From contig CAKTLG010000030.1 in the NCBI GenBank assembly GCA_934572465.1, forward strand, positions 1 to 22,989: a stretch of 22,989 bases of DNA, in the 5' to 3' direction. Source of the stretch: an uncultured Oscillospiraceae bacterium (GTDB lineage: Bacteria > Bacillota > Clostridia > Oscillospirales > Oscillospiraceae). The notes under the pieces are model-generated. The model was not told the DNA's origin. It did no database searches and saw only the letters and a list, made by a program, of their open reading frames with translations. This document shows positions 2,702 to 17,957 of this stretch, piece by piece (the first letter of the stretch is position 1; every line of letters begins with the position of its first letter). The position numbers and the translations under genes were made by a program.

Positions 2702-3916
2702 TCAGTCCGCCTTCTCGGGCGCCTGCTGGTGCAGCAGACGCGGGCTGGCCGCGTCGATCAGCAGCGCGCCGAGCGGCGCGGTGATGAGGATGCCGAGCAC
2801 TGCAACGGACAGCACGGCCCCGCCGCAGGAAAGCCCCGCCGCCAGCGGCACAGAGCCGATGGCCGCCTGCACCGTGGCTTTGGGCAGGTAAGCGAGCACG
2901 CAGAACAGGCGCTCGCGCCGCTCGAGCGGCGTTTTGACAAGACAGAGCGCGACGCCCAGCGAGCGGAACACGAGCGCGCCGAAAATGAGTACGACCGCAC
3001 TGCCGCCCAGCGCGGCGGTATAGCGGACGTCGACAGCCGCGCCGACGAGCACGAAGAGCAGGATCTCGGCAAACAGCCAGAGCTTGCCGAGCTTTTCGGA
3101 CAGGCGGCGGGAGACGGGCACGGGACTTTTTGCCCGCAGCGCACAGGCCATGGCGGCCACGGCGAGCAGGCCGGAGACGGGGACGACGCCTTGAAGCAGA
3201 TCCTCGGACGAAACGAGCAGGAGCGCGACGCCCAGCACGATGATGATCTTTATGCTGCCGCGCACGCAGCGGCCATGGTGGAAGGCCGTCTCAAAAAAGC
3301 GGTGGAGCAGGAGACCCGCCGCCGCGCCGAGCAGGATGCCGAGCGCGATGGAGACGGGGATATCAAGAAACGCGCGCACCTGCGCCTGCCCGCCCTGCGC
3401 CATGCCGAGAAACGTGGTAAAGAGCACGATGACGAAGATATCGTCGCAGGACGCGCCCGCCATGATGAGCTGCGGGATGCCCTTGTCCGTTCCGCGGCGC
3501 TCTTCCATCAGCTGCACCATACGCGGCACGACCACAGCGGGCGAGACTGCCGCGAGCACTGCGCCCATGACAGCGGCTTCAACGGCCGTAAGGCCGAGCA
3601 GGCGCGGCGCAAGCAGCACGTAGCCGAGGATCTCGAAGCTTGCAGGCAGACACGACATGAGCAGCGCAGGACGCCCCACACGCCGGAGGTCGGCGAGGTC
3701 GAGCGAAAGGCCAGCCTTGAGCAGAATGATGATGAGCGCGAGCTTGCGCAGCTCGGCGGAGATGGCGAGCAGCGACGGATCGAGCACATTGAGCGCGCAC
3801 GGGCCGAGCAGGATGCCGACAAGCAGCAGACCGATGATGCGCGGCAGGTGCAGCGCACGGAAAAGCGCCGCCAGCGCAAGGCCGCAGAGAAGAACGAGCG
3901 CAAGTGAGAGCAGCAT
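2702..3916 (-). CDS. Cation:proton antiporter family protein under fluoride riboswitch control
   Basis: This 404-residue, very hydrophobic protein has about 11-12 membrane helices and belongs to the Na+/H+ exchanger (CPA) fold. Features seen are GLLLVGILLGP (29-39), SPAVVVPRM (125-133), an Asp-Asp pair at 158-159 (ASCDDIF) in the position of the ion-binding aspartates of electrogenic CPA2 members, and PKATVQAAIGS (345-355). In-frame ATGs at 3952 and 3937 fall inside leader hairpins. The ATG at 3916 has GGGGG 7 nt upstream and is the likely start. Fluoride riboswitches are known to control CrcB/Fluc, CLC-F and some CPA-type antiporters, so this protein probably exports fluoride or limits fluoride stress (inference). 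Transport of Na+ or K+ remains possible. Confidence 0.9.
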   Translation of the reverse strand: MLLSLALVLLCGLALAALFRALHLPRIIGLLLVGILLGPCALNVLDPSLLAISAELRKLALIIILLKAGLSLDLADLRRVGRPALLMSCLPASFEILGYVLLAPRLLGLTAVEAAVMGAVLAAVSPAVVVPRMVQLMEERRGTDKGIPQLIMAGASCDDIFVIVLFTTFLGMAQGGQAQVRAFLDIPVSIALGILLGAAAGLLLHRFFETAFHHGRCVRGSIKIIIVLGVALLLVSSEDLLQGVVPVSGLLAVAAMACALRAKSPVPVSRRLSEKLGKLWLFAEILLFVLVGAAVDVRYTAALGGSAVVLIFGALVFRSLGVALCLVKTPLERRERLFCVLAYLPKATVQAAIGSVPLAAGLSCGGAVLSVAVLGILITAPLGALLIDAASPRLLHQQAPEKAD

Positions 3917-3940
3917 AAAAAAACCCCCTTTTCGGGGCAT
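3917..3940 (-). promoter_or_regulatory. Possible ribosome-binding-site-masking hairpin
   Basis: In the antiporter leader, CCCC-GAAAA-GGGG forms a compact hairpin that includes the GGGGG Shine-Dalgarno (3924-3928). The upstream half can instead pair as GGGGCAT with ATGCCCC, freeing the ribosome site. The alternative pairing is seen in the sequence; a regulatory role is inference. Confidence 0.45.
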
Positions 3941-3941
3941 G

Positions 3942-3987
3942 AAAAAAGCCAATGCCCCTGTGATAAAGTCACAGAAGTCATCAGCTT
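3942..3987 (-). terminator. Riboswitch-controlled terminator (expression platform)
   Basis: On the minus strand AAGCTGATG (3987-3979) pairs with CATTGGCTT (3954-3946), with two G-U pairs; an inner CTGTGA/TCACAG stem extends it, and a run of six U follows. The 5' arm is the conserved 3' segment of the fluoride aptamer, so aptamer and terminator exclude each other. Confidence 0.85.
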
Positions 3988-4032
3988 ACAAGCGGTTTAG
4001 GCGTTCGCCACGGGAGAACCTCATTCCCAAGG
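3971..4032 (-). ncRNA. Fluoride riboswitch (crcB motif) aptamer
   Basis: Read on the minus strand, GGGAATGAGGTTCTCCC forms P1 with its loop. GAGGT in that loop can pair with ACTTC downstream (pseudoknot). TAAACCGCTT-GT-AAGC forms P3, followed by the conserved CTGATGACTTC. This matches the crcB-motif architecture of the Thermotoga petrophila and Bacillus cereus fluoride aptamers, with a small extra GGCG/CGCC hairpin between P1 and P3. Fluoride binding should stabilise the aptamer and prevent the terminator at 3942-3987, switching the antiporter gene on. Confidence 0.88.
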
Positions 4033-4036
4033 CAGT

Positions 4037-4064
4037 ATTATACCATGCCGCGCGGAAAAAGCAA
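4037..4064 (-). promoter_or_regulatory. Promoter for the fluoride riboswitch transcript
   Basis: Minus-strand TTGCTT (4064-4059), 16-bp spacer, TATAAT (4042-4037). Transcription would start near 4030, exactly at the 5' edge of the aptamer. Confidence 0.75.
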
Positions 4065-6868: not shown

Positions 6869-9800
6869 ATGAAAAAACGCCTGCTTCACCTGCTGATGAT
6901 CCTTTGCGCGGCGCTGACCCTGTGCGTCGCAGCCTCCGCCGCGAGCGTCACGCAGGTCAGTACCGACGCCCAGCTGAGAGCCGCGGCTGCGAACGCAAGC
7001 ATTTCGGAAATTCAGCTGACGGCTAACATTTCCCTTGAAAGCACGCTGGAGATCAAGCGCACGCTTACGCTGGATCTGAACGGCCATTATCTGGAGCCGA
7101 GATCCGGCGGCCGGTTCAGGGGCGTCAGGCTCGGCTCCGATACGTGGATCACACTGACCGTCAAAGACAGCCAGAAGGATAAGGATGGGACGAAGGCCGG
7201 CGCGATCCGAAACGGCGTAGATACCACCGGCGAGGGTGGCGGCGGCGTATATGTCGGCCCCGGCGCAACGCTCATTCTGGAAGGCAGTGATATCCTCAAC
7301 TGCAAAGCCCAAAGCGGCGGCGGCGTGTATCTTGATTCCGATGCAAAGCTCGAAATGCGCGGCAGCAGCGGGATCAGCGGCTGCAGCGCCGTCTCCGATA
7401 GTTCCAATGCGTATGGCGGCGGCGTGCATGTCAGCAGATTTGCATCTATGCTGATGACGGATAACAGCAGCATTGCCTCCTGCTCGGCTGAGGCCGGCGA
7501 TGACGGCGGCTACTGCTATGGCGGCGGCGTCTATGTCGATGCCGGCGAGCTTACAATGGAGAAAAGCAGCAGTATTATCAACTGCAAGGCGGCAGCCAAA
7601 AGCCACGTTGCGGGCGGCGGCGTATACGCACGCAATTCATCCTCGTTCGTCATGAGCGGCGGCGATATTGGCAATTGTACCGCGACGGGCGACAGCTTTG
7701 TTTCCGGCGGCGGCGTTTACTCCGGCGGCAGCTTCCGGATGACCGGCGGCACCATTGCCGATAGCTGCACGTCAACGGGGAACTCTTATGCCTACGGCGA
7801 CGGGTTGTTTATTGAGGACGACCGGATGAACGCCGACGGCGGTACCGTGGAGTGTGCAGTCCGCATTTCCAATGGTAGGATCGGCTGCAGTGAGGATGCG
7901 GCCGGCAGCACCACGTTTACCGGAAATGTATCCAACGCGGGCACCATTTCGGGCGGCACGTTTGAAGGCTGGGTGACAAACAGCGGCGATAGCGGATACA
8001 TCTGCGGCGGCACGTTTGGCGAAAACTCCGGCGTGAGCACTGTCAGCTTTGACGCAGCCGGCGGAACACCGGTAACGAAGAAATGTTATACCATTACCGG
8101 CAGCCCGATCTCCTACTACGATTACCGCGGCGGCCGGCTTGACTTGAGCAGAGAGGGGTACGATTTTGACGGCTGGTACTATGGCAATAAAAAGTGGGAT
8201 TTCAAAACGGATGCCGTCACCGAGAACATAACGCTTACGGCACGCTGGATATCGCATTCCGCCGTGTTTATGATAACGTTTGACGCAAACGGCGGCGCTT
8301 TCATGGTCGGCGGGGACTCTATCGAACAAAAGATCTCGAACGTGCGGTACAACACCTGCGCTGTGGAGCCGGACCCCGCGCCGGTCCGCTTCGGTTATAC
8401 GCTCGCGGAATGGCGCGACAAAGACGGACGCAAGTGGGATTTTGAAAAGGATGTAGTCAAAGGAAATATGACGCTCTACGCCGCGTGGACGCCTGCGGTC
8501 TACACCGTGGAATTTGATTCGGCCGGCGGCACCGATATCGCGGCACAGGAGGGCATCGAGCACAACGCACACGTCACCGAGCCGGAGGACCCGACAAAGG
8601 CGGGCGCGGTCTTTGACGGCTGGTATTACAACGGAAAGCACTGGAATTTTCGGTACGATCCCGTGACCGGCGGCATGACGCTTGTGGCGCGCTGGGTCGG
8701 CGGCGCGCAGACGATCCCCGTCACCGGCGTGTCGCTGGACATGAAGAAGCTGAGCCTTGAAAAGAGCGAAAGCACCTCGCTGACCGCCATAGTTGCTCCG
8801 GCAGATGCCGATGACCGGCGTGTCAGCTGGGAAAGCACGGATACGTCGGTCGCAGCGGTGGATGCAAGCGGCAACGTGACCGCAAAGGGCGCGGGCATGG
8901 CGATGATCGTCGTCCGCACCGCGAACGGAAACCGGATCGACACCTGCACCGTCACCGTCACGGATGCCTCCGCGCCCGCGCCGGAGCCCAGCCACACGCA
9001 CAGCTACAGCGAAACATGGGACAAGGATGCGGCGCATCACTGGCGCGTCTGCACGGGCTGCACAGTCACAACGGGATTCAACACGCACGATTACGGCAGC
9101 TGGAATGTGACCCGGCAGCCCACCGCGACGGAGACCGGCGAGCGTGAGCGCAGCTGTACCACCTGTGGCTACGTAGAGAGGCAGACGATTCCCGCGATCG
9201 GCGGATCGCCGGAGCCCAGCCACACGCACAGCTACAGCGAAACATGGGACAAGGACACGACGCATCACTGGCGCGTCTGCGCCGATGCGGATTGTCCGGA
9301 TCCGGAAGCCAGTGTGCGCGACAAAGCGGAGCACGGCTACAGCAGCGATGCGGACGCCACCTGCAACACCTGCGGCTATAAACGCACTGTCTTGCCGGCG
9401 CCCGCGCCTGTGACGCCCGCTGCTCCCGTTACGCCCCCTGTGCCGCAGCCCTCGAAAGCGGAGGATGAAGGCAAGCAGGAGGACACGACAGACGGCTCAG
9501 ATTTTACGGATGTGGACAAAAACGACTGGTTCGATGAAGATGTACGCTATGTCAGTGAAAAGAAGCTGATGAACGGCGTCTCCGGTACGGAGTTTGCCCC
9601 TGACGCGGCGGTGACACGCGGGATGGTCGTGACCATCCTTGCCCGTATGGAGGGCGTGAGCACCGGCGGTACGCCGTGGTATGCGGCAGGCCGCGCGTGG
9701 GCGATGGAAAACGGTATTTCCGACGGTACGAGCATGGAAGCGCCGATCACGCGCGAGCAGCTTGCGGCGATGCTGTTCCGGTATGCTGTTTTCAAGGGGA

Positions 9801-9997
9801 TGGATGCGGTGACGCTTGCAGATCATCTCGCGCAGTTCAGCGACCGCGGACAGATCAGCACTTGGGCCGTATCCGCCTTGAACTGGGCGGTCGGCAGCGG
9901 GATCATGAACGGCAGGAGCGGCGGAGCGCTGGACCCGAAGGGAACAGCGGCGCGCGCGGAGCTGGCGGCGATGCTGCGGCGGTTTTTGGAGCAATAG
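6869..9997 (+). CDS. Large secreted SLH-anchored surface protein (beta-helix, InlB, BIG2)
   Basis: 1042 residues. Layout: signal peptide 1-25 (MKKRLLHLLMILCAALTLC, cleavage near ASA); right-handed beta-helix about 40-385 with recurring GGGVY turns (122 onward); three InlB/Listeria-Bacteroides repeats at about 390-457, 466-540 and 544-610 (FDAAGG / FDANGG / FDSAGG ... GWYY ... ARW); a BIG2 Ig-like domain 616-700; two copies of an HTHSYSETWDKD module (705 and 781) with CxxC pairs; a Pro-rich linker; and three SLH repeats 878-1042 that should bind secondary wall polymer. It is therefore exported and non-covalently attached to the cell wall, and probably acts in adhesion or as surface coat. GGGAGG precedes the ATG. 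It is the only gene of its transcript. Confidence 0.93.
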   Translation: MKKRLLHLLMILCAALTLCVAASAASVTQVSTDAQLRAAAANASISEIQLTANISLESTLEIKRTLTLDLNGHYLEPRSGGRFRGVRLGSDTWITLTVKDSQKDKDGTKAGAIRNGVDTTGEGGGGVYVGPGATLILEGSDILNCKAQSGGGVYLDSDAKLEMRGSSGISGCSAVSDSSNAYGGGVHVSRFASMLMTDNSSIASCSAEAGDDGGYCYGGGVYVDAGELTMEKSSSIINCKAAAKSHVAGGGVYARNSSSFVMSGGDIGNCTATGDSFVSGGGVYSGGSFRMTGGTIADSCTSTGNSYAYGDGLFIEDDRMNADGGTVECAVRISNGRIGCSEDAAGSTTFTGNVSNAGTISGGTFEGWVTNSGDSGYICGGTFGENSGVSTVSFDAAGGTPVTKKCYTITGSPISYYDYRGGRLDLSREGYDFDGWYYGNKKWDFKTDAVTENITLTARWISHSAVFMITFDANGGAFMVGGDSIEQKISNVRYNTCAVEPDPAPVRFGYTLAEWRDKDGRKWDFEKDVVKGNMTLYAAWTPAVYTVEFDSAGGTDIAAQEGIEHNAHVTEPEDPTKAGAVFDGWYYNGKHWNFRYDPVTGGMTLVARWVGGAQTIPVTGVSLDMKKLSLEKSESTSLTAIVAPADADDRRVSWESTDTSVAAVDASGNVTAKGAGMAMIVVRTANGNRIDTCTVTVTDASAPAPEPSHTHSYSETWDKDAAHHWRVCTGCTVTTGFNTHDYGSWNVTRQPTATETGERERSCTTCGYVERQTIPAIGGSPEPSHTHSYSETWDKDTTHHWRVCADADCPDPEASVRDKAEHGYSSDADATCNTCGYKRTVLPAPAPVTPAAPVTPPVPQPSKAEDEGKQEDTTDGSDFTDVDKNDWFDEDVRYVSEKKLMNGVSGTEFAPDAAVTRGMVVTILARMEGVSTGGTPWYAAGRAWAMENGISDGTSMEAPITREQLAAMLFRYAVFKGMDAVTLADHLAQFSDRGQISTWAVSALNWAVGSGIMNGRSGGALDPKGTAARAELAAMLRRFLEQ
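8981..9052 (+). repeat. 72-bp direct repeat, copy 1
   Basis: Nearly identical to 9209-9280; the few differences are around GATGCGG versus GACACGA. It encodes the EPSHTHSYSETWDKD module of the SLH protein. Confidence 0.9.
9209..9280 (+). repeat. 72-bp direct repeat, copy 2
   Basis: Second copy of the module at 8981-9052, 156 bp further on. The near-identity at the DNA level points to recent duplication or gene conversion. Confidence 0.9.
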
Positions 9998-14484: not shown

Positions 14485-15870
14485 ATGAACAAACGGCTGC
14501 GCGTCCTCGCGGCGCTTCTGGCGGCGGTGCTTTTGAGCGGCCTGCTCACGGCGGGGGAGGCCGGCTCCGCCTCCGCTGCGGGAAGCCCGTACTATATCAT
14601 GGTCAACCGGAAAATGAACACCGTGACGGTGTACACGCAGGACGAGGCCGGAGAATATACCGTTCCCTATAAAGCGATGATCTGCTCGACCGGACGGCAG
14701 GGCCATGCCACGCCGCTCGGCAGCTTCCAGCTCACGAACGTCAGAAAGCAGTGGTGCCTGATGTTCGACGGCTCCTACGGCCAGTATTCCACTCAGTTCA
14801 GGGGCAATTACCTTTTCCACTCCGTCTGCTATACGGCGCCGGACCCGTCGAAGCTGATCGCCTCGGAGTATAATATGCTCGGCGGCGTCGCCTCGCTCGG
14901 CTGCGTGCGCATGCAGACGGCCGACGCAAAATGGATCTATGAAAACTGTCCCGCCGGCACGCGGGTCACCATCTACGACAGCGACGACCCCGGCCCGCTG
15001 GGAAAGCCCGAGCGGCTCGTGGACGCGATCCCCGATGACTGCGGCTGGGATCCGACCGATCCGCGGCCGGAGAATCCATGGACACAGAAGCCGGTGGAGG
15101 AGATCCGGCTCTCCGCGGAGTCGGCGTCGCTCACTGCGGGCGGCAGCCTGACGCTGACGGCGGCGTGTCTGCCGGAGGACGCGGGCATCAAAGCCGTGGT
15201 CTGGACGTCGGATGCGCCTGAGGTCGCGTCGGTGCAGAAGGGCCGCGTGGTCGCGCTGCGGGAGGGTACCGCCGTGATCACGGCGAGCTGCGGGCGCGCC
15301 AGCGCGTCCTGCACGGTCACGGTGACGGGCGAGCTGCTGCCGTTCGCCGATCTGGCGGCGGGGGCGTGGTACTATGACGACATCCGCTTCGCCGCCTCGC
15401 ACGGCGTCCTGCACGGAGACGGGCAGGGGCGCATGGATCCGAACGGCGTTGTGACCTGGGCGACGGCGCTCCAGATCGCCTATAATCTCGCGGGGAGCCC
15501 GCGGATCGAAACGGCCAATGAGCGCTGGTACGGTCCGGCGCTCGCGTGGGCGGAGGAGCACGGCCTGCTCGAGCAGATGACATTCCGTGCGGGCGCGCCG
15601 ATCAACAGGCAGGAGATGGTGACGCTCCTGTACCGCTGCGCGGTGACGACCGGCCAGATACCGGAGTATTTCGGCGCCTTCAGCGGCGTCGCGGACGTGC
15701 CCGGGGCGTCCGACTATGCCGTGGACGCCGTGCGCTGGGCGATCGGCACGGGGATATTGAAGGGCGACGGCGCGCAGCAGCTCGAGCTGTTCTCGCCGCT
15801 GACGAGGGCGCAGGCCGCCGCCGTGGTCAGGCGTTATCTCCAGCAGCAGGAGAGCCTGCTCGCCGCATAA
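14485..15870 (+). CDS. SLH-anchored L,D-transpeptidase (YkuD domain)
   Basis: 461 residues. Signal peptide 1-32 (cleavage near ASAAG). YkuD catalytic domain about 36-165 with H112 (NYLFHSVC) and the catalytic Cys140 in SLGCVRM. A BIG2 Ig-like domain follows at about 205-285, then three SLH repeats at about 288-455. L,D-transpeptidases make 3-3 peptidoglycan cross-links, resist most beta-lactams, or attach proteins to the wall. Here the SLH tail would hold the enzyme on secondary wall polymer. GGAGG lies upstream of the ATG. Own promoter and terminator. Confidence 0.93.
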   Translation: MNKRLRVLAALLAAVLLSGLLTAGEAGSASAAGSPYYIMVNRKMNTVTVYTQDEAGEYTVPYKAMICSTGRQGHATPLGSFQLTNVRKQWCLMFDGSYGQYSTQFRGNYLFHSVCYTAPDPSKLIASEYNMLGGVASLGCVRMQTADAKWIYENCPAGTRVTIYDSDDPGPLGKPERLVDAIPDDCGWDPTDPRPENPWTQKPVEEIRLSAESASLTAGGSLTLTAACLPEDAGIKAVVWTSDAPEVASVQKGRVVALREGTAVITASCGRASASCTVTVTGELLPFADLAAGAWYYDDIRFAASHGVLHGDGQGRMDPNGVVTWATALQIAYNLAGSPRIETANERWYGPALAWAEEHGLLEQMTFRAGAPINRQEMVTLLYRCAVTTGQIPEYFGAFSGVADVPGASDYAVDAVRWAIGTGILKGDGAQQLELFSPLTRAQAAAVVRRYLQQQESLLAA

Positions 15871-15935: not shown

Positions 15936-16463
15936 TCAGAGCCGGACGTTCGTGACCGCGAGATCGTACAGCAGATGCGACAGGATGAGAGAGAGCATCG
16001 TGCAGCCGCGCCATTTCTCATACGCCGCGCCGAACAGCAGCCCGATGCAGAGCGGTATCAGGAACTGCGCGATACCGGCCCGTCCGCCGGTCAGATGAGC
16101 GAGCGCAAAGATCAGCGCGCTTCCCGCGACGGCGAGGGCGGGGGACTGCCACCGCCGTTTGATCGCGCCCTGTAAGCACCCGCGGAAAAACAGCTCCTCT
16201 GCCGCCGCGACCAGCAGCTGAAAGAGGAAGAACTGCGCGGCGCTGCCCGCTGGCAGCGCGAGAAACTGAAGCACTGAAAACGAGCCTGTGAGCGCGATAT
16301 TCAGCGCGCCCACGAGCACGACCGGCACGAGCCCCAGCCCAACGCCGCAGAAAACGTGGGCGGGGCGCACCGGCTGGAGCGGCCCGCGCCACGGGCGCAG
16401 CAGCGCCAGCGCCGCCGCAAGCAGCGCGAGGTTGATGAGCCAGTATTTCAGATCAATCAGCAT
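15936..16463 (-). CDS. CPBP-family intramembrane metalloprotease (short form)
   Basis: 175 residues with about five membrane helices. CPBP motifs: EELFFRG (E89, E90, R94), FALAH (H123) and SHLLYD (H163). It is shorter than the CPBP protein at 11594-12346 and unrelated to it outside the motifs. It is divergent from dpaA with 109 bp between the starts. The context (spore genes) might hint at a role in late sporulation, but neither sequence nor promoter shows this. Ends at a terminator shared with the transpeptidase. Confidence 0.88.
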   Translation of the reverse strand: MLIDLKYWLINLALLAAALALLRPWRGPLQPVRPAHVFCGVGLGLVPVVLVGALNIALTGSFSVLQFLALPAGSAAQFFLFQLLVAAAEELFFRGCLQGAIKRRWQSPALAVAGSALIFALAHLTGGRAGIAQFLIPLCIGLLFGAAYEKWRGCTMLSLILSHLLYDLAVTNVRL

Positions 16464-16572
16464 CCCGCGTCCACGTCCTCTCCCGTTTTTTCAAGCTTAT
16501 CATGCCGCCGCGCGATTTGCAATCAAGAACTGCGCCGCGCGCGCATACCCTTTATGGAAAAGGGGGAATGAG

Positions 16573-17400
16573 ATGGCTCGAACGATAGCATTTTTGGGCG
16601 GCGATGCGCGCATGCGCCTGCTCGCGCAGATGATGGCGGCGGACGGATACGATGTCTGCTCGTGGGGGCTTGACGGCGCGCCGGAGGAGCGCGCGCTGTG
16701 CGACGCGCTGAAAGCGGAGATCATCGTCCTGCCGCTGCCGATGGAAAGGGACGGAAAACTCGCCGGCACGGACGTCGCGGCGGACGATCTGCTGCGCGCG
16801 CTGCGCCCGACGCAGCGCATCTTTGCGGGCAATGCCGGTGCGGAGACGATGGCGCGCGCCCGCGCGCTGGGGCTTTCCGTCACGGATTACTTCACCGCCG
16901 AGGAGCTGAGCGTGCGCAACGCGATCCCGACGGCGGAGGGCGCGATCGAAGCGGCGATGAAGCACACGAGCGTCACGCTGCACGGCACGCCCTGTCTTGT
17001 GCTCGGCTTCGGCCGCATCGGAAAGCTGCTGGCGCACGATCTGCACGCGCTGGGGGCGAAGGTCACGGTCAGCGCGCGAAAGCTCTCCGACCTTGCATGG
17101 ATCGACGCCTTCGGCTACGCGCCGCTGCACATAAACCGGCTGAGCGGCGCGCTGGGGGAATTCCGCGTCGTATTCAACACCGTGCCGCATCAGGTGATGG
17201 ACGAAAAGCTCCTTTCCGAGCTGCCGGCCGACGCGCTGCTCATCGAGCTGGCGGGCCGCAGCGGCTTCGACCCTGCAGCGGTGGAAAAGCTGCGCCTTTC
17301 CTATGTCAAGGCGGGCGGACTGCCCGGGCGCGTCGCGCCGGAGACGGCGGCGCTTGCGATCAAAAAGACTTTATGTAAACTCTTGGAGGAGGACGTATGA
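16573..17400 (+). CDS. dpaA: Dipicolinate synthase subunit A
   Basis: 275 residues, the normal length of SpoVFA/DpaA. With DpaB it converts the dihydrodipicolinate precursor (4-hydroxy-tetrahydrodipicolinate) to dipicolinic acid, in the mother cell during sporulation. The N-terminal part has the flavin-like IAFLGGDARMRLLAQ start, and the second half a Rossmann NAD(P)-binding motif LVLGFGRIGKLLA (about 141-153), with NAIPTAEGAIEAAM just before it. The ATG at 16573 has AGGGGG 6 nt upstream. It overlaps dpaB by four bases (ATGA). No clear sigma-K promoter could be identified in the 109 bp upstream. Confidence 0.95.
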   Translation: MARTIAFLGGDARMRLLAQMMAADGYDVCSWGLDGAPEERALCDALKAEIIVLPLPMERDGKLAGTDVAADDLLRALRPTQRIFAGNAGAETMARARALGLSVTDYFTAEELSVRNAIPTAEGAIEAAMKHTSVTLHGTPCLVLGFGRIGKLLAHDLHALGAKVTVSARKLSDLAWIDAFGYAPLHINRLSGALGEFRVVFNTVPHQVMDEKLLSELPADALLIELAGRSGFDPAAVEKLRLSYVKAGGLPGRVAPETAALAIKKTLCKLLEEDV

Positions 17401-17957
17401 AGATCGGTTTTGCCTTTTGCGGCTCGTTCTGCAACCATCCCGAGCTGCTGAAAATTTACGAGGACATCGCGCGCGAGCACGAGCTTGTGCCCATTCTGTC
17501 AGAAAACGCCGCGCGCTATTCCACGCGCTTCGGCACGGCGGAGGATTTTGTTTCCCGCGTTGAGGCCATCGCGGGCCGCAGCGCCGTGCGCGACATTGTT
17601 GAGGCTGAGCCGCTGGGCCCCCAGGGAGCGATGGAGGTGCTCGTCGTCGCGCCCTGCACGGGCAACACGCTCGCAAAGCTCGCCCACGGCATCACCGACG
17701 GGCCGGTGACGATGGCGGCAAAGGGCCACCTGCGCAACGGCAAGCCCGTCGTGCTCGCCATTGCGACGAACGACGGCCTATCCGCCAGCGCGCCGAACAT
17801 CGCCGCGCTGTTGAACCGCAAGAACTACTACTTCGTCCCCTTCGGGCAGGACAATGCCGAAGCAAAGCCCACCTCGCTCATCGCGGACTTCCGCCGGATC
17901 CTGCCGGCGGTCGAGGCGGCGATGGCAGGCCGCCAGCTGCAGCCCCTTTTGCTATAA
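17397..17957 (+). CDS. dpaB: Dipicolinate synthase subunit B
   Basis: 186 residues, a flavoprotein-fold subunit of dipicolinate synthase (SpoVFB). It begins MKIGFAFCGSFCNHPELL; the middle has VVAPCTGNTLAKLAHGITDG and AAKGHLRNGKPVVLAIATND, typical of the family, and the C-terminal part FVPFGQDNAEAKPTSLIADF. Translationally coupled to dpaA by the ATGA overlap, with GGAGGA inside the end of dpaA. Together the two genes mark the organism as an endospore former. A terminator follows. Confidence 0.95.
   Translation: MKIGFAFCGSFCNHPELLKIYEDIAREHELVPILSENAARYSTRFGTAEDFVSRVEAIAGRSAVRDIVEAEPLGPQGAMEVLVVAPCTGNTLAKLAHGITDGPVTMAAKGHLRNGKPVVLAIATNDGLSASAPNIAALLNRKNYYFVPFGQDNAEAKPTSLIADFRRILPAVEAAMAGRQLQPLLL

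Follow-up and report, generated by a model that had tools for sequence, protein, structure and literature searches.

A fluoride riboswitch before an NHA2-like antiporter gene, and a likely read-through hairpin in a subset of its relatives

We analysed a stretch of DNA of 22,989 nucleotides (here called the window, meaning the whole stretch) from an uncultured Oscillospiraceae bacterium, in which a leader on the minus strand joins a known kind of switch to a known kind of gene, probably with a hairpin in read-through RNA in this lineage. The aptamer, the terminator, the gene family, and the complementarity of the segments together with its recurrence in a subset of relatives are all computed results. 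Our preferred reading, to which we assign a probability of roughly 0.55, is that the leader is a transcriptional ON switch for fluoride, in which a hairpin between the 3' arm of the terminator (segment 3) and the bases that follow the U-tract (segment 4) keeps the ON state in RNA that has been read through.

The aptamer shares a strand with an intrinsic terminator

The features of the leader and its gene are as follows.
4037 to 4064, minus strand: promoter-like element, TTGCTT (4064-4059), 16 bases, then TG-G-TATAAT (TATAAT at 4042-4037); putative, read by eye
3965 to 4037, minus strand: fluoride riboswitch aptamer (crcB motif; Rfam RF01734, 42.7 bits, E 6.3e-9)
3942 to 3986, minus strand: intrinsic terminator, stem AGCTGATG to CATTGGCT (arms 2 and 3) with a six-T tract at 3947-3942 (fold, -20.3 kcal/mol; partly in the pattern scan)
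3952 to 3958, minus strand: segment 3, GGGGCAT, within the terminator 3' arm; pairs with segment 4, with counterpart pairings in relatives
3934 to 3940, minus strand: segment 4, ATGCCCC, which closely follows the U-tract; can pair with segment 3 and, via CCCC, with the ribosome site
3923 to 3938, minus strand: possible hairpin masking the ribosome site, GCCCC-GAAAAG-GGGGT, then T; not conserved as such (pattern scan and fold)
3924 to 3928, minus strand: ribosome binding site GGGGG, separated by 7 bases from the ATG (from the sequence)
2702 to 3916, minus strand: gene for a CPA2 cation/proton antiporter of 404 aa, SLC9B/NHA2-like, with a DD motif and LPKATVQAAIGSV (PF00999; PDB 7b4l)

An earlier sequence-only reading of this DNA had proposed a crcB-motif aptamer at the 5' edge of the transcript and had called for a covariance-model search as a check. 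That search bears the aptamer out: RF01734 matches 4037-3965 of the minus strand at a score above the gathering score of 34. The aptamer is real, and by its E-value it exceeds chance; the fold of the entire leader is only moderately above chance (z -2.0, with 5 of 200 shuffles folding equally well). Since TATAAT, with a TG one base 5' of it, lies directly 5' of the aptamer, the aptamer probably opens the transcript, and its start would approximate the transcript 5' end as had been proposed. The TTGCTT hexamer is a poor -35, and the promoter-like element is absent among the matches of a consensus scan, whose -35 threshold it misses.

The terminator consists of an 8-pair stem of AGCTGATG with CATTGGCT, to which CTTCTGTGA with TCACAGGGG adds further pairs, and of a run of six T; its stem (3986-3947) has a computed fold of -20.3 kcal/mol for the stem alone. 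The conserved 3' segment of the aptamer, CTGATG, lies in AGCTGATG and thus doubles as the 5' arm of the terminator (arm 2), a proposal of the earlier reading that both the RF01734 match and the computed fold confirm. From the U-tract to the ATG (3916-3914) the leader reads ATGCCCC, GAAAA, GGGGG and seven T. Both of the alternative pairings that had been pointed out in this interval exist on paper. GGGGCAT (3958-3952) with ATGCCCC (3940-3934) forms seven pairs at a computed -10.0 kcal/mol, or -11.1 kcal/mol with two extra pairs, and GCCCC (3938-3934) with GGGGT (3927-3923) reaches -8.9 kcal/mol; the two are mutually exclusive.

The preferred reading predicts the following course of events, in which the fluoride response, the locking role of the 3:4 hairpin and the role in transport are all inferred. 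Without fluoride, arm 2 would leave the aptamer and pair with arm 3, so that the terminator forms and RNA synthesis halts at the U-tract. With fluoride, arm 2 would be held in the aptamer, the polymerase would read through and the antiporter would be produced, most likely to export cations against protons and so to serve pH and ion balance under fluoride stress. Arm 3, unoccupied in the read-through RNA, would then pair with segment 4 just after the U-tract, which could prevent the terminator from re-forming later and leave the aptamer and mRNA leader in the ON state. The 3:4 pairing would be without influence on the termination decision itself, because segment 4 has not yet been transcribed at that point.

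Bases after the U-tract can pair with the terminator 3' arm in a subset of relatives

In the window, the complementarity of GGGGCAT and ATGCCCC has p values of 0.017 and 0.0075 in two tests in which the downstream segment was shuffled. We compared it with the leaders of related antiporter genes, drawn from loci that had been found by antiporter similarity or by RF01734 and therefore no random sample. A first set of 141 gave 114 parsed leaders (27 unparsed), reduced to 91 when near-identical ones were removed. In the larger set, automatic parsing found the terminator layout in 157 of 180 antiporter loci, leaving 23 unparsed, and removal of near-identical leaders left 122 distinct ones; some rows may be misassigned by the parse, among them L034, which has its own terminator of another type.

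In a subset of these relatives the bases right after the U-tract are complementary to the terminator 3' arm, and the pairing is kept with differing sequence, as in CGCAGGAA:TTCCTGCG (L132, L137), CAGGGGAAG:CTTCCCCTG (L107), CACAGGGGCAT:ATGCCCTTGTG (L170) and, as a further example, GCAGGGGCAT:ATGCCCTTGC. When each segment 3 was scored with its own segment 4 and with those of other leaders, the first set of 91 gave -6.15 for own pairing versus -5.05 for swapped (z -5.4), with p below 0.05 in 26 leaders. For the 122 leaders, with those lacking a duplex scored as zero, the values were -8.34 and -6.62 (z -7.8), and none of 10,000 swaps was as good. The signal was found both among leaders whose antiporters are under 62% identity (49 leaders; z -6.8, 0 of 10,000) and among the remaining 73 (z -3.9, 1 of 10,000).

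The excess could also arise without any function for the hairpin. On such an account the leader is a plain terminator-type fluoride riboswitch, and 3:4 complementarity is a by-product of base composition, of descent, or of selection at the DNA level for termination efficiency after the U-tract. Several results lean this way. When segments were swapped only between nearest neighbours, the own score of -8.34 in the 122 leaders compared with -7.71, -7.62 and -7.39 for one, three and five neighbours (p 0.16, 0.05 and 0.01), and inside the two identity halves p ranged from 0.04 to 0.34. Because the gain over nearest relatives is this small, part of the excess seen at the level of the whole set may be inherited through shared descent rather than selected. 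Fluoride-riboswitch terminators moreover favour purines at their 3' ends, according to the accessible text of PMC13273304, and many of the 122 leaders, by eye mostly AT-rich ones, are without 3:4 pairing. Against this account, the own-versus-swapped signal recurs in three separately defined sets, namely the family of G585 (22 leaders; z -4.3, 0 of 20,000), the window with L001-L080 (66 leaders; z -3.5, 8 of 20,000) and a further set of 13 leaders (z -2.6, 138 of 20,000), but not in the genus of G276, where arm 3 is nearly constant in the 10 leaders and own partners have no advantage over swapped ones (z +1.3). The long helices of differing sequence also speak against it, as does the poorer pairing of a reversed segment 4 of equal composition (-6.90 vs -8.34). 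We consider the by-product account possible but less probable than our preferred reading.

Further counts describe how far the pairing extends. Uninterrupted 3:4 stems of 8 or more pairs occur in 17 of the 122 leaders, versus a mean of 8.8 and a maximum of 15 after swapping. Comparison of Watson-Crick pairs gave 66 that were better in 3:4 and 22 that were better in 2:3, in the 45 best rows and so with a bias in favour. Terminator-like hairpins elsewhere in the loci (256, taken from a crude finder script and not necessarily all terminators) have a median p of 0.47, with 9.8% at p 0.05, versus a median of 0.25 and 19.8% for the 91 antiporter leaders (Mann-Whitney p 0.0003). The 14 fluoride leaders of the GACTCCTAC type that were parsed, with three further sites unparsed, showed no sign of 3:4 pairing: their median p was 0.51, and two of them reached p 0.05. 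When the downstream segment was shuffled in each of the 122 leaders, 25 reached p 0.05 and 16 reached p 0.01, and on this count of 25 a universal 3:4 hairpin was rejected.

The first of the two pairings in the earlier reading, in which the bases after the U-tract pair with the terminator 3' arm, thus stands in outline through the relatives, with the weak nearest-neighbour controls as a caveat. We conclude that a 3:4 hairpin is likely in a subset of relatives that includes the window, and is not a family-wide rule. If the read-through RNA does have a selected hairpin, then both the persistence of the ligand-bound leader and the response of mRNA that has already been made would change. Leaders L107, L132, L134, L170 and L180, with long 3:4 helices of differing sequence, are ready-made objects for testing it.

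Masking of the ribosome site is not a conserved second layer

The sequence-only reading had gone further and suggested that transcription and translation are switched jointly. CCCC of segment 4 would mask the ribosome site in RNA that escapes termination, and with fluoride segment 3 would take segment 4 and release the site. We addressed this by computing the exposure of the ribosome site with the terminator formed (OFF) and with arm 3 free (ON), for 89 of the 91 leaders with a short coding part and for 80 of the 91 with a longer one, where linkers were also shuffled as a control; the 80-leader run excluded leaders in which the site was unclear, the start lay more than 60 bases from the U-tract, or the linker was shorter than 4 bases.

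Some leaders behave as the double layer predicts. In the window the masking hairpin (-8.9 kcal/mol) and the 3:4 pairing (-11.1 kcal/mol) exclude one another, and freeing arm 3 raises computed exposure from 0.21 to 0.77 in L098 and from 0.14 to 0.65 in L101, the only two in which the effect is clear. With only 9 coding bases a rise of more than 0.3 was seen in 13 of 89 leaders. In the OFF fold, natural linkers also leave the site slightly less exposed than shuffled linkers do (0.213 vs 0.239, p 0.0009; 80 leaders), and a G-rich Watson-Crick stem of at least 4 pairs covers the region of the site in 19 of 122 leaders including the window, a count made without shuffled controls and with leaders that carry inserted elements among the 122.

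The general trend runs against it, however. Across the 80 leaders the mean change in exposure was 0.010; with shuffled linkers it was 0.029 (p 0.047), a difference opposite to the one the double layer predicts, and the ON fold was likewise less exposed than shuffled (0.223 vs 0.268). With 9 coding bases exposure fell by more than 0.3 in 7 of 89 leaders, and 103 of the 122 are without a 4-pair masking stem. GGAGG precedes the start in 80 of the 122. In the window itself GGGGG pairs weakly with the gene start once arm 3 is free, which lowers exposure from 0.19 to 0.09; with less coding sequence the values are 0.19 and 0.20. Masking of the ribosome site as a conserved layer was rejected, as exposure showed no general rise in either of the two computations. 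The relatives keep the aptamer while the masking hairpin is not conserved, a comparison that the earlier reading had itself named as a way to refute it and that counts against the hairpin. A double layer is possible in the window and is unsupported as a conserved mechanism; as an account of the leader it is unlikely.

An extended version would make arm 3 an arbiter of three states, in which pairing with arm 2 means stop, pairing with segment 4 locks the ON state and frees the site, and loss of fluoride returns segment 4 to the site and turns off mRNA that has already been made. A single aptamer would in that case govern an mRNA twice, first at its transcription and later at its translation. 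This is more doubtful still.

The hairpin GCCCC-GAAAAG-GGGGT with its T run might instead be a second intrinsic terminator, with 3:4 as its antiterminator, giving two stops. The pattern scan lists it as terminator-like, and, since segment 3 is transcribed earlier, 3:4 is the best fold at most of the growing-chain lengths computed short of the end of the T run; but the hairpin has just five pairs and by eye is absent in the relatives shown, whose T-rich spacers between site and ATG occur without one, and we regard a second terminator as improbable.

Tandem aptamers precede an antiporter gene in two genomes of another genus

In another genus of the Clostridia such control of both transcription and translation seems to be reached by two tandem aptamers, one transcriptional and one translational. 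G513 (L189 5818-5969, contig G513:C11) has aptamers scoring 38.1 and 42.6 bits, separated by 28 bases, ahead of a PF00999 antiporter gene. A terminator-like stem (-11.3) and a run of seven T come after the first aptamer; in the second, CTCCTATAA is complementary to TTATAGGAG, which holds part of the ribosome site. The tandem is repeated with altered sequence in G1183 of the same genus (L197 372-540, contig G1183:C42), with a terminator of -13.5 and a masking stem of -11.6, before an antiporter frame that appears interrupted or shortened. An aptamer match was found in 12 of the 13 genomes searched in this genus, and the tandem in these two.

Judged by its layout, the tandem is a better candidate than the window for joint control of transcription and translation by fluoride, and would offer a natural two-layer fluoride switch. 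A 2022 survey places fluoride among the riboswitch classes without tandems (PMC9481103, in the part accessible), and an engineered pair of fluoride riboswitches has been described (PMC8814607, likewise in part).

The L189 contig also carries a third aptamer (516-586, 34.6 bits) before a MutS-like frame and a weak match (3567-3606, 21.9 bits, below threshold) before a P-type ATPase frame, and is possibly a cluster of fluoride-controlled genes.

The antiporter is SLC9B/NHA2-like and frequently linked to the riboswitch

The product of the gene belongs by family to the cation/proton antiporters. Its sole Pfam match is PF00999 (Na_H_Exchanger), at 144.1 bits against a gathering score of 26.2; CrcB/Fluc and CLC-F gave no match in this search, in agreement with the earlier statement that the output gene is neither CrcB nor CLC-F. 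The best solved relative is 7b4l (SLC9B2/NHA2), with E 3.8e-39 for the single sequence and 3.8e-49 for a 17-row family profile. The proposed Asp-Asp antiporter of CPA type was also confirmed: D158-D159 in AGASCDD is invariant in 17 of 17 aligned antiporters and aligns with the DD of NHA2, with which the protein shares both the aspartate pair and LPKATVQAAIGSV, and the PKATVQ motif of NHA2 is kept. The start methionine (ATG 3916-3914) is common to all 17. The closest relative in the genome collection is that of L001 (71%), and proteins P0002-P0006 are 82-100% identical to the window antiporter, with P0006 covering 75% of it.

RF01734 was found at gathering score upstream of the antiporter in 70 of 80 loci, these being the best 80 of at least 561 confirmed in species genomes. 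Among the others, L063 has a sub-threshold match of 29.0 bits, L015 starts only 33 bases before the gene, and RF01734 was absent at E 0.1 in 8 of the best 80, including L047, whose leader looks similar. It was also present in 18 of 20 further chosen loci (19 of another set of 26, plus L149), with antiporters about 54-68% identical. The association of aptamer, terminator and antiporter is already known. In the accessible text of a review (PMC11139923), Na+/H+ antiporters are the next-most common riboswitch-associated genes after fluoride exporters, and their link to the riboswitch is explained by pH homeostasis. The frequency of the link marks this SLC9B/NHA2-like subfamily as likely fluoride-stress antiporters. 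It is very improbable that the antiporter itself carries fluoride as a fluoride/proton exchanger, a candidate role in the earlier reading that the frequent linkage (70 of 80 and 18 of 20 loci) might suggest but that is not supported given the PF00999-only Pfam match, the retained cation-antiporter motifs and the ascription of such antiporters to pH homeostasis.

Individual loci carry other elements in this region. At L046 a GA-cis RNA (RF02987, 96.5 bits; 2895-2983) intervenes between aptamer and antiporter gene. In 4 of 188 loci (L016, L097, L099, L155) the U-tract of the terminator is separated from the remainder of the leader by a repeat element with GTGCCATTTCCTCGCCCC in common; past this element, L016 and L097 again show bases resembling segment 4. 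L013 has two successive terminator blocks (469-645) with CTAATGAC and CTGATGAC; the aptamer match is in the first only, and the second looks like a partial copy. The antiporter also occurs behind a leader with CTGATGAC and a terminator on the IMG/VR contigs L081 and L082, which are putatively viral.

Downstream on the antiporter strand the window encodes a DUF362 protein and then a MerR/GyrI-like regulator. Elsewhere, on the plus strand, are surface proteins with SLH and Big_2 domains, one with Flg_new repeats (6869-9997) and one with a YkuD L,D-transpeptidase domain (14485-15870), and adjoining genes for dipicolinate synthase subunit A-like and B proteins (16288-17957). The A-like protein matches from residue 97 on, below the NCBIfam cut-offs, and B passes; from these genes the organism is probably a spore former of the Clostridia kind.

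Comparison with known systems

Transcription-terminating fluoride (crcB) riboswitches such as that of Bacillus cereus crcB share with the window an aptamer 3' segment that is also part of the terminator, as described in the accessible text on their strand-exchange mechanism. What the window has in addition is a segment after the U-tract that is able to pair with the terminator 3' arm. A 2026 covariation model of whole fluoride riboswitches aligns the post-aptamer sequence only as far as the termination site (PMC13273304, in the part accessible), and since the alignment ends there we interpret segment 4 as lying outside that model. A search of the open-licence literature found no report of a conserved post-terminator partner, and in the literature that we found a read-through hairpin is proposed only from the probing of single RNAs.

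Dual transcription/translation attenuators resemble the window in having a terminator near the gene and possible masking of the ribosome site. In the published criterion for them the terminator hairpin lies at most 10 nt from the start codon (PMC2258182), whereas in the window the ATG follows the stem by 30 bases and the U-tract by 25. An antiporter under a fluoride riboswitch is also found at Clostridioides difficile CD0656-0657, where, in the accessible account (PMC11477304), an NhaP-type antiporter stands behind the gene for a CLC-type protein; in the window, by contrast, the antiporter gene comes directly behind the riboswitch. The SLC9B2/NHA2 Na+/H+ exchanger shares the DD and LPKATVQAAIGSV with the window protein, which differs in being bacterial and linked to fluoride riboswitches.

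The closest parallels to the proposed 3:4 hairpin come from chemical probing, in the accessible text of PMC10687018. For B. cereus crcB the authors suggest that an alternative structure of the unpaired terminator nucleotides could help the fluoride-bound aptamer to persist, and for the pfl ZTP riboswitch of Clostridium beijerinckii an alternative hairpin of the downstream terminator stem is described. In both, terminator nucleotides refold in the read-through RNA, as proposed for the window, and could preserve the ligand-bound aptamer. Those hairpins were proposed from the probing of single RNAs, whereas that of the window comes from the comparison of leaders and would take its partner strand from the bases after the U-tract.
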